IMG/VR virus record: IMGVR_UViG_3300042691_031577
Span: 1-64,000 of that record
Source: a virus
DNA length: 64,000 bases
Direction: 5' to 3' (one strand)
Of the stretch, positions 63 to 6,405 are shown in pieces (position 1 is the stretch's first letter; every line of letters begins with the position of its first letter). Under the pieces are notes generated by a model. It did no database searches and was not told the DNA's origin. It saw only the letters and a list, made by a program, of their open reading frames with translations. The position numbers and the translations under genes are program-made.

Positions 63-205
63 TAGTCAGGGTAGGACTTGCACCTACACCGCTTCCGTTT
101 ACCCGCACGACGAACGCTGAAACTCCTACGGTTTACTCTTTCGAGTGACGGCCAAGCTCTCCGTCTTTAATGTCGTGTTTTGCCTTTCTATTCAGCCACC
201 TGACT
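63..205 (-). ncRNA. 143-nt tRNA-like element A (expanded centre)
   Basis: The ends look like a tRNA: 7-bp acceptor AGTCAGG/CCTGACT with discriminator A at 63, a short D-stem GCT/GGC, and a T-arm GTAGG-TGCAAGT-CCTAC directly before the acceptor 3' strand. The interior is about 55-60 nt too long. A CACGAC/GTCGTG stem sits where the anticodon stem should be, but its loop is about 60 nt and holds nested hairpins (GACGG/CCGTC and ACTC-GAAA-GAGT). It could be a tRNA with an intron-like insertion in the anticodon loop, a degenerate tRNA, or a non-decoding tRNA mimic. The T-loop has G at position 55, which is atypical. No amino acid identity is assigned. Confidence 0.55.
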
Positions 206-326
206 ATATGCCTTTTTGAACAACGTTGAGAAGGCTAACTCTATCTCCTATACGATGAGACGGTACTAGTGAGCATTGTTAAGAGGCTTTACCGGTATTA
301 CGATCCCCTCGCGAGCGGGGCTATTG
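206..326 (-). other. Spacer between the two tRNA-like elements, with GC-rich inverted repeat
   Basis: No ORF and no complete tRNA could be found here. A GC-rich inverted repeat (CCCC/GGGG around TCGCGAGC) lies at 305-320. On the minus strand, around 225-260, there is a D-arm-like stretch with a CTC/GAG stem and a GG-containing loop, but no matching anticodon or T-arm. The segment may be the remains of a tRNA or the spacer of a processed polycistronic tRNA transcript. Confidence 0.35.
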
Positions 327-469
327 TAGTCAGGACAGGACTTGAACCTGTATAACTCATAACAGTTGGTGTGAGTTATTTAATCCATTAGACGAGGTAA
401 TCAATCCACTAACCAACATTGATAATCCCTCTCTTCTAACTTCTGCGTCTACCATTCCGCCACCTGACT
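327..469 (-). ncRNA. 143-nt tRNA-like element B (expanded centre)
   Basis: It has the same length and the same acceptor stem (AGTCAGG/CCTGACT, discriminator A) as element A. The D-arm is good (GCG-GAATGGTAGA-CGC, with the GG of the D-loop) and the T-arm is canonical (ACAGG-TTCAAGT-CCTGT). After the D-arm the sequence CAGAAGTTAGAA resembles the 5' half of a leucine anticodon arm, but no matching 3' half follows. About 55 nt intervene with their own pairings (GAGG/CCTC, ATCAAT/ATTGAT), then a long arm ATAACTC/GAGTTAT. It may be an intron-bearing or remodelled class II tRNA. Decoding identity is unresolved. Confidence 0.55.
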
Positions 470-703
470 ATTTTTCCTATCCTGAGATTCCAGATAGTAG
501 ATTTTAACGGTTTAGTTTTCTTGAAAACAAACACATTAGTGTCTTACCACATAAAACTAAAAAGCAGCATTACTGGGAGGAAACATGCCAGTATCCTTTA
601 TCCCCACGAGGTCGGCGTTTTTATTAGTAAGGATGTCCGGCCCAATACCCTATCCATTGTTTATGTCTTGGATTAAAGACTGCTGAGTATCTCTTACTCA
701 TTG
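470..703 (-). other. Noncoding, hairpin-rich stretch of unknown function
   Basis: There is no ORF above noise and no tRNA with a recognisable T-arm. On the minus strand several short stems can be seen: GAGT/ACTC just after tRNA-Glu, GTCTT/AAGAC, TACTGG/CCAGTA with an 11-nt loop, ACAC/GTGT, GTTTT/AAAAC and CTATC/GATAG. The density of stems and lack of coding capacity suggest a structured RNA or decayed tRNA genes within the tRNA transcript. Confidence 0.4.
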
Positions 704-775
704 TACTCCCTACGAGAATCGAACTCGTCTTTCCAGGATGAAAACCTGATGTCCTAACCGATAGACGAAAGGAGC
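704..775 (-). tRNA. tRNA-Glu(TTC)
   Basis: A normal 72-nt tRNA. The acceptor is GCTCCTT/AGGGAGT (with G-T wobbles), followed by a D-arm containing the GG pair, anticodon arm CAGG-TTTTCAT-CCTG with anticodon TTC, and T-arm with TTCGATT loop. CCA is not encoded; the genome reads A-CAA at the 3' end. Confidence 0.9.
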
Positions 776-4567: not shown

Positions 4568-6405
4568 GCTCCACCAGCACAAGCGGCTTGATCCATTAAT
4601 GCTGTTTCATCACTATACTCTACTACTTTAGATAGATCCAATGAATGTAGATGACCAACACGTTCATTAAATTCAGCCTCAGTTATAGTTTCAAATGGAG
4701 CTTGTGTATATGTTCCTAAATCTTCAGGTAAGAATGATAATGCAGTAAAATATTCTTTATTATCCCATAACCACTCACCTACAGTTTCCCATTCTTGTTG
4801 TTTGATATTTACTGTAGCTGAAACGTTATGCATATTGCTTCCTTTTCTGTGGCCTGGTTTAATCCACTCTTTATTGAATTTTTTAATTCTTTCTAACAAT
4901 TCAATTGCCGTTTCTTTAGGACGTGTAATAGAGCCTACTGGTGCCTTTTGAGGAATAGTTACAATCGCTTGAATATGTGGTTTAAAGAAATCATCTTCTA
5001 ATAATTCTGGGTGGTGGATTTGGAGGTGGGTATATAATGCCTCATTCTTACCAATACGAATTCTTCTTAAATAGAAATCATCGTGCCAAGCATGAATACC
5101 ACTTGAAGTACCTAATACTAATGATGTAGTTCCTGATGGTTTTACACATGTAACACGAGCTGCTTTATTAATTCCTAATATTTCAGCAACGCGAGCGTTT
5201 TCCTCTGTTGCTGTTTTAGCTGCTTCTTTTAAGCTAAAATTTAATACTGCTCCTGAAGCAATACCAGTCATTCCGATACCCAATAGTGCTTCTTTTTCAG
5301 TTGTTTTTTTCCATACATCTCTTAAATAATGGAAATCAGTATATGATGCTTGTAATGTACCTATAAATGCTGCTGCTTTTACTCTAGCGTTTAAATCTTC
5401 CTGTGATTCAATAGTTGAAGCATTTACTTCACATAAATTACAGAATTGATTAGGACGTAAGTTAATTTCAGCACAAGGATTAGTACCTGCATCTTTATCA
5501 TTTGAAAATATAAATCCTGGTTCACCTGAATTGCTTAGTTCAATTTTTTTCCATAAATCAAGAAATATATCTTTTTCAATTTTAGATTTAATTAATACTG
5601 CTGTATTATTTGCTCTTCCGCGTTGTGGGTTTTGTTCCCACCAATTACCGAATTTGCAAGTTAGCATGTCTTCATCATCTAGATTAAATAAAGCAATTAA
5701 AGCTGCTCTTCTAATACCACCTGACAATACAGCATCTGCTAAATGACAAATAATATCATGACATTCTAATGATGTTAATTTATCTCCGTCTTGTTTTCTA
5801 TCTAAAATAGCTTGTACATGTATTAAAGCAATTTTTAAAGGCTCAGGTCCAGGTGCTTTACCACCTACAGTAATTAACTGAGCACCTTTAGGACGAATAT
5901 CTCTAAAATCAAATAAAGGTGCTGGCCCTCCACGTAAATAGGCTTTCATTAATACTTTAACTGCATCAGCCCATCCTTCAATTGAATCACCTACTAAATA
6001 ACGTTTTGATTTTAGTGGTTTTCTTACCTCAGGTAATTTTTCAATATGGTGTTGTTGTACTGAGTATCCTACTCCACATCCTGATAATAATAAAAACATT
6101 ATTTCTGAGAACGATGCTAAATCATCAATAGGAAGATATGAACAGTTAAATACTCGAGCATTATTTATCTCAATTGGTTTACCAGCAAATTGCATTGAAC
6201 GCATTGATGGTAATACTTTTTTATCATATACAAATTTATATGCATTTTCAATTTCTTCAGCTAAATGAGGAAATTTCTTTAAATGCATATTTTTATTACG
6301 ATCAACTAATTCATGCCATGTCTCTCTTCTATTTAATTCAGGATTAAATTTGGCGTACTTCATGTAGACAGTGATGTCACTCAAGATACTTTGTTCTATG
6401 TTCAT
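4552..6405 (-). CDS. nrdJ: Class II (adenosylcobalamin-dependent) ribonucleotide reductase
   Basis: Reduces ribonucleotides to deoxyribonucleotides using a B12-generated thiyl radical, with no separate radical subunit. Visible active-site features are: FNCSYLP (Cys88, first redox Cys), SGCGVGYS loop, NPCAEI (Cys311 as thiyl radical site, Glu313), Cys322 as the second redox Cys, and C-terminal shuttle pair Cys609/Cys614 in ACAGGACEIV. The LPSMRSMQFAG and NCSYLP signatures fit the monomeric RTPR-type class II enzymes. At 617 residues it is somewhat shorter than the cellular enzymes. A thioredoxin gene lies directly upstream and would re-reduce the C-terminal cysteine pair. No nrdA/nrdB pair is seen in this window. 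Confidence 0.9.
   Translation of the reverse strand: MNIEQSILSDITVYMKYAKFNPELNRRETWHELVDRNKNMHLKKFPHLAEEIENAYKFVYDKKVLPSMRSMQFAGKPIEINNARVFNCSYLPIDDLASFSEIMFLLLSGCGVGYSVQQHHIEKLPEVRKPLKSKRYLVGDSIEGWADAVKVLMKAYLRGGPAPLFDFRDIRPKGAQLITVGGKAPGPEPLKIALIHVQAILDRKQDGDKLTSLECHDIICHLADAVLSGGIRRAALIALFNLDDEDMLTCKFGNWWEQNPQRGRANNTAVLIKSKIEKDIFLDLWKKIELSNSGEPGFIFSNDKDAGTNPCAEINLRPNQFCNLCEVNASTIESQEDLNARVKAAAFIGTLQASYTDFHYLRDVWKKTTEKEALLGIGMTGIASGAVLNFSLKEAAKTATEENARVAEILGINKAARVTCVKPSGTTSLVLGTSSGIHAWHDDFYLRRIRIGKNEALYTHLQIHHPELLEDDFFKPHIQAIVTIPQKAPVGSITRPKETAIELLERIKKFNKEWIKPGHRKGSNMHNVSATVNIKQQEWETVGEWLWDNKEYFTALSFLPEDLGTYTQAPFETITEAEFNERVGHLHSLDLSKVVEYSDETALMDQAACAGGACEIV

Follow-up and report, generated by a model that had tools for sequence, protein, structure and literature searches.

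Two 143-nt tRNA-shelled RNAs of a T4-like virus belong to a widespread phage RNA family that is apparently undescribed

The window analysed here, positions 1 to 64,000 of IMG/VR record IMGVR_UViG_3300042691_031577 (110,141 bases), encodes two 143-nt elements, 63-205 and 327-469, that are probably natural tRNA scaffolds, in which the top half of a tRNA is built around an unrelated, independently evolving folded cargo RNA; this reading is drawn from sequence comparison. The record was assigned to a T4-like virus by its major head protein and portal families, a DnaB-type helicase, and RecA-like and gp32-like proteins. A preliminary description had reported both elements with shared AGTCAGG/CCTGACT acceptor strands and a discriminator A, all of which are present; the coding strand, previously unstated, is the minus strand, with the elements read 205→63 and 469→327 in the order AGTCAGG-TG-D-arm-interior-T-arm-CCTGACT-A (Table 1). 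ARAGORN detects neither element, and the tRNA model is their sole match in Rfam, at scores to be compared with a gathering score of 29; no intron, tmRNA or YrlA model matches them. Two contigs (L012 and L013) carry an identical element pair. Neither intergenic stretch, 206-326 or 480-702, folds better than shuffled sequence, and the coding potential of positions 1-800 is confined to short open runs.

Table 1. Coordinates of the two elements and their parts, of ordinary tRNA genes in the same array, and of the four further elements of the record.
Feature	Position	Strand	Basis or remark
tRNA-Leu(TAA), ordinary, 5' part only, truncated at contig end	1..54	-	intact 85-nt gene in L012, L013
tRNA-shelled RNA 1, whole, 143 nt	63..205	-	Rfam tRNA 29.9 bits
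acceptor 3' strand CCTGACT and discriminator A	63..70	-	sequence
T-arm GTAGG-TGCAAGT-CCTAC	71..87	-	sequence
interior	88..181	-	fold prediction only, z -1.25
D-arm GCTGAATAGAAAGGC, D-loop GG absent	182..196	-	sequence
acceptor 5' strand AGTCAGG	199..205	-	pairing with 64-70
tRNA-shelled RNA 2, whole, 143 nt	327..469	-	Rfam tRNA 35.6 bits
acceptor 3' strand CCTGACT and discriminator A73, then C74	327..334	-	sequence
T-arm ACAGG-TTCAAGT-CCTGT	335..351	-	sequence
interior, 93 nt, in place of anticodon arm and variable loop	352..444	-	conserved in L120, L339, L340
interior stem-loop ATAACTCA/TGAGTTAT, adjoining T-arm	352..379	-	two pairs doubly changed across versions
interior hairpin, helices RNA 30-35/78-83, 39-42/73-76, 47-52/65-70	387..440	-	four versions compared
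proposed pseudoknot strand GTTGGT, partner ACCAAC 365-370	412..417	-	complementarity
D-arm GCGGAATGGTAGACGC, tRNA-Leu type, G18 G19 present	445..460	-	sequence
acceptor 5' strand AGTCAGG	463..469	-	pairing with 328-334
tRNA-Glu(TTC), ordinary	703..775	-	ARAGORN; Rfam 54 bits; same array and strand as elements
element, 118 nt	90396-90513 of record	+	
element, 83 nt	96113-96195 of record	-	
element, 107 nt	98335-98441 of record	-	
element, 69 nt	108203-108271 of record	-	

Element 327-469 could be compared in four distinct versions found in phages, and these versions keep 99.4% of pair cells where slid controls keep 30-43%. Both sides have changed in six pairs, of which four belong to the acceptor and two to the interior stem beside the T-arm; the acceptor changes come from L340, in which the same interior sits inside another acceptor, AGCAGAG/CTCTGCT, with four compensated pairs. 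The larger interior hairpin is invariant or shows a G-U change, with a single C.A mismatch (in L120), and the strands of the proposed pseudoknot are unchanged in all four versions and so carry no covariation signal either way. The RNA as a whole folds with a z score of -2.13.

The interior of 63-205 recurs only in two contigs, both with an identical element, and because these offer no informative divergent relatives its fold is a prediction only, with candidate hairpins CACGAC/GTCGTG, GACGG/CCGTC and ACTC-GAAA-GAGT found by eye and by minimum free energy. The element retains A15-U48 but is without the D-loop GG and the T-loop U55. The T-arms and D-stems that had been called credible are borne out insofar as each element has a 5-bp T-stem and a D-stem, whereas the T-arm (loop TGCAAGT) and GG-less D-loop of 63-205 are less canonical.

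The record holds six such elements of 69-143 nt, all with the AGTCAGG/CCTGACT acceptor, and a generic acceptor-plus-T-arm search of the record, whose filter excludes ordinary tRNAs with imperfect stems, returned these six and no others. Their six interiors have no match to each other, in agreement with the earlier observation that the interiors of the pair differ. Pattern scans of viral contigs matched at least 119 stretches with T-arm plus 3' acceptor, at least 120 with the 5' shell, and at least 120 with the D-arm alone; GTDB genomes added 13 stretches, mainly on phage-like contigs within metagenome bins, several of them Bacteroidota. The family comprises at least 358 distinct elements at no fewer than 222 loci, chiefly on environmental phage contigs, and the 358 elements among the matches listed fall by blastn into 266 interior families unrelated to each other. 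With hundreds of relatives in other phages, chance is excluded as the origin of the two elements. Up to eight different elements occur per record, and when seven long relatives were picked by ribonucleotide reductase, independently of the element, five contained one. Element lengths in the family span 54 to 212 nt (median 105 nt; interior median about 60 nt), and given this spread the equal 143-nt length of the two elements is a coincidence. No record with both ends of the AGTCAGG shell was found among INPHARED isolates with a chimeric probe, and no description of a tRNA-shelled family was found in the open-licence literature; the AGTCAGG-shell elements are apparently a widespread phage RNA family that has not yet been described. 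The sample of AGTCAGG elements is partly circular, since that acceptor was itself the probe; with the D-arm as the only probe, AGTCAGG is present in 69 of 101 among the matches listed, and about 20 matches have other acceptors, paired throughout in almost every case; ordinary tRNA-Leu genes account for at least two of these.

A host tRNA was considered as the source of the acceptor and rejected, as eight mostly Bacteroidota bins gave the pattern only at loci already in the sample. At one of these, L217:6810-6881 (Hymenobacter montanus), a tRNA-Arg(CCT)-like gene has the 3' end CCTGACTA and a 5' end that does not pair with it, and looks like a tRNA end altered by integration. In CALMEO010000055.1, the final 40 nt of a shell element recur antisense in an ORF approximately 70 kb away (RTGFEPVRYNH; L222 about 5960-6000, and L219:2446-2485), which is possibly a trace of recombination or integration.

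The shell that is constant across the family consists of the acceptor, a tRNA-Leu-type D-arm, the T-arm and the discriminator. Among the 358 listed elements, U8 is present in 344 and A73 in 325, and the Levitt pair 15-48 is A15-U48 in 274, while G15 is matched by C48 in 9 of 10 cases and U15 by A48 in 5 of 8; this covariation persists when each interior family is represented by a single element (Fisher p 4e-10). Nearly all members have a T-loop of the form TTCRANN, mostly TTCGAAT, TTCGAGT, TTCGATT or TTCAAAT, and loss of the TTC in this loop goes together with loss of the D-loop GG (Fisher p 0.006, from only five cases, 63-205 among them). The D-arm of 327-469 also occurs in ordinary tRNA-Leu(TAA) genes of L353 and L362. 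As in functional tRNAs, there is a 7-bp acceptor stem with discriminator, compensated in L340, and a D-arm/T-arm elbow with a 15-48 pair, all of which is present in 327-469. Because the 15-48 pair covaries, acceptor changes are compensated and the end signatures are tRNA-like, the shell is maintained by selection as the folded upper half of a tRNA. A second insertion site was observed in the record's 90396-90513 and in L125, L170, L191, L268 and L308, as a hairpin in the D-loop directly before the GG.

The interiors likewise behave as structured RNA. Their folding energy is lower than that of dinucleotide shuffles (mean z -0.79, p 8e-20, n=213), and 27 of the 57 multi-member families among those listed have at least one interior pair changed on both sides. 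Across these 57 families, 54 of 669 interior pairs are doubly changed compared with 30 of 4014 in slid controls, a comparison biased toward the observed side in that the family structures were derived from the same alignments on which they were tested. The compensated pairs kept within families, together with the transfer of an interior between acceptors in L340, indicate that the interiors are selected in their own right. Some interiors (L138, L120, L147, L183 and L216) contain a second T-arm-like hairpin, e.g., TTGGTTCGACTCCAA. Antisense action on the virus's own genome or on rRNA was rejected as a role: apart from the shells, the six interiors have no match longer than 16 nt to the viral genome, and complementarity to rRNA is 8.26 nt against 8.32 nt in shuffled sequences, with E. 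coli rRNA as a stand-in because none was found in the Hymenobacter genome.

The ends of the shell elements resemble those of the ordinary tRNAs at the same loci, with U at position -1 in 82% and 69%, respectively, C74 in 99% of both, and positions 75-76 equally A-rich. Strand agrees with that of an ordinary tRNA at most 1 kb away in 158 of 158 elements. From these equal end signatures and agreeing strands we infer that the elements would be co-transcribed with tRNAs and undergo tRNA-like maturation. In the proposed scaffold mechanism, the elements would be transcribed together with the phage tRNA array, cut at their ends by host RNase P and 3' maturation enzymes, and given CCA; the tRNA top half would then shield and display the interior, a cargo that may bind a host or phage target differing between elements, perhaps as an aptamer-like effector or a decoy for a host protein or RNA. 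Transcription, processing, stability, and the interior rather than the shell as the active part are steps that we infer. The dominance of one acceptor (69 of 101 among the matches listed by the D-arm probe) suggests that something may recognise the shell sequence itself, a recognition for which a passive scaffold would have no use.

That single dominant acceptor would be explained if the shell were the active part, with the element serving as an anticodon-less decoy for RNase P, the CCA-adding enzyme, LeuRS, EF-Tu or a tRNA-targeting defence nuclease, and the interior merely abolishing decoding and drifting under weak constraint. The conserved acceptor and elbow, the tRNA-Leu-type D-arm and the prevalence of A73 noted above are consistent with such a decoy, as is the prevailing view that bacterial LeuRS does not recognise the anticodon. 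This explanation is nevertheless unlikely, although it is the strongest of the alternatives, as it leaves unexplained the compensated pairs within interior families and the same interior under different acceptors (L340), and a single decoy function would be hard to square with as many as eight different elements in one record. The processing decoys suggested in the preliminary description are likewise a possibility.

A role as specialised translation RNAs, either in tmRNA-like rescue or as unusual decoders, is considerably less credible. The processing signatures and the shell do resemble an aminoacylatable tRNA, and a weak tmRNA-like match was obtained, but to another unusual tRNA-like gene, in L177. 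The elements themselves have no match to the tmRNA model RF00023, their acceptor pair 3-70 is U-A and not the G-U of tmRNA, and they have neither a conserved reading frame nor an anticodon loop. Among 226 elements whose D-arm is canonical, 2 have a 5-bp/7-nt anticodon arm at the canonical place, compared with 1.9 expected from shuffles, and neither of these two candidates has U33, so that by sequence the elements are not functional tRNAs; L100 and L152 are exceptional members with tRNA-like arms, for which ARAGORN calls Lys UUU.

Very little speaks for the earlier suggestion of tRNA genes with a small intron whose removal would restore the anticodon arm, beyond the position of the insert at the place expected for that arm. 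The idea fails in that no anticodon arm occurs above chance at the canonical place. There are no constant exons beside the insert that would rejoin into such an arm, and in 327-469 an interior helix directly adjoins the T-arm. The interiors are unrelated between families yet covary within them, are far smaller than known group I introns, and contain no known intron core or Rfam intron match. The splicing endonuclease of archaea and eukaryotes is not known from bacteria, which also counts against splicing. The alternative suggestion of tRNA mimics fared better and can be widened to a large family with hundreds of relatives; simple, insert-free tRNAs in related phages had been named as the outcome that would speak against unusual elements, and the relatives instead retain the interior with compensated changes, even under another acceptor. 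Decay of tRNA pseudogenes or assembly artefacts, to which the loss of the D-loop GG and T-loop U55 from 63-205 might point, can be dismissed as extremely improbable given hundreds of copies on independent contigs with paired acceptors and covarying 15-48 pairs and interiors, and two or three near-identical assemblies of the locus.

Two further loci hold unusual tRNA-like genes. In the tRNA-like gene at L177:1916-2038, which has acceptor GGGGCGG and the weak tmRNA match, an anticodon arm is followed by a second T-arm-like hairpin and, after a spacer, by the T-arm; expanded tRNAs also occur outside the AGTCAGG shell. The minus strand of L277 at approximately 2830-2500 encodes two tRNA-like genes, Asn GTT-like and Ile AAT-like, with permuted halves, the 5' half coming after the T-arm and 3' acceptor, and a sub-threshold YrlA match.

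If the scaffold reading holds, viruses use on a large scale the engineers' trick of a tRNA shell that matures and stabilises small RNAs, and the family would offer a reservoir of folded RNA cargos, 266 or more of them unrelated, of which many may be aimed at host machinery or defences. More broadly, phages, apparently mostly of Bacteroidota, could possess a natural tRNA-scaffold system in which hundreds of unrelated structured cargos, displayed on one conserved and tRNA-processed shell, are trans-acting effectors against differing host targets, with T4 RNA C as a distant case, a generalisation we advance tentatively as somewhat short of an even chance. As tRNA finders miss the elements or assign them meaningless anticodons, they contaminate phage tRNA counts.

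Several known systems share features with the elements. YrlA and the bacterial Y RNAs are likewise tRNA-mimicking bacterial small RNAs; identity with YrlA was rejected, since the elements do not match RF02553 and the record contains no Ro60 (TROVE) gene. The TMERs of MHV68 join a viral tRNA-like part to variable functional miRNA hairpins, but these hairpins trail the tRNA rather than replace its anticodon arm, and the virus is eukaryotic. Class II tRNA-Leu shares with the elements the D-arm GCGGAATTGGTAGACGC, U8, A14, A15-U48 and A73, whereas the elements have no anticodon arm, an unrelated interior, and a median length of 105 nt. In the engineered tRNA scaffold, the acceptor stem and the T- and D-arms are retained and a structured RNA is inserted at the anticodon arm (PMC3753655); the elements keep the identical arms and use the identical insertion site, but the engineered version is man-made, and the natural ones also use insertion in the D-loop (90396-90513, L125, L170, L191).

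A natural phage RNA with a comparable plan is T4 RNA C (rnaC, or 'species 1 RNA'), which has been validated by Northern blot (PMC9697503), is expressed late, and has a function reported as unknown (PMC9697503, PMC3014915). Like the elements, it is a tRNA-array RNA, of 139 nt, with a 7-position acceptor-like stem and T-arm, no anticodon arm, CAA after the 3' end, and an exchangeable middle. Comparison with its homologues in CIP9, Pet-CM3-4 and EnC15 reveals that the acceptor-like stem, the T-arm and an abutting hairpin are kept, with six pairs doubly changed, and in EnC15 (L414) the central domain of the T4-type RNA C is swapped while these three parts are retained. Unlike the elements, T4 RNA C has two U.U mismatches in its acceptor and is a single RNA in each phage, with one main interior where the elements have hundreds; since it also lacks a D-arm and shares no sequence with the AGTCAGG shell, we claim a likeness of plan and not membership. 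If the scaffold reading is correct, T4 RNA C would nonetheless gain a class, and the question of its role would become testable.
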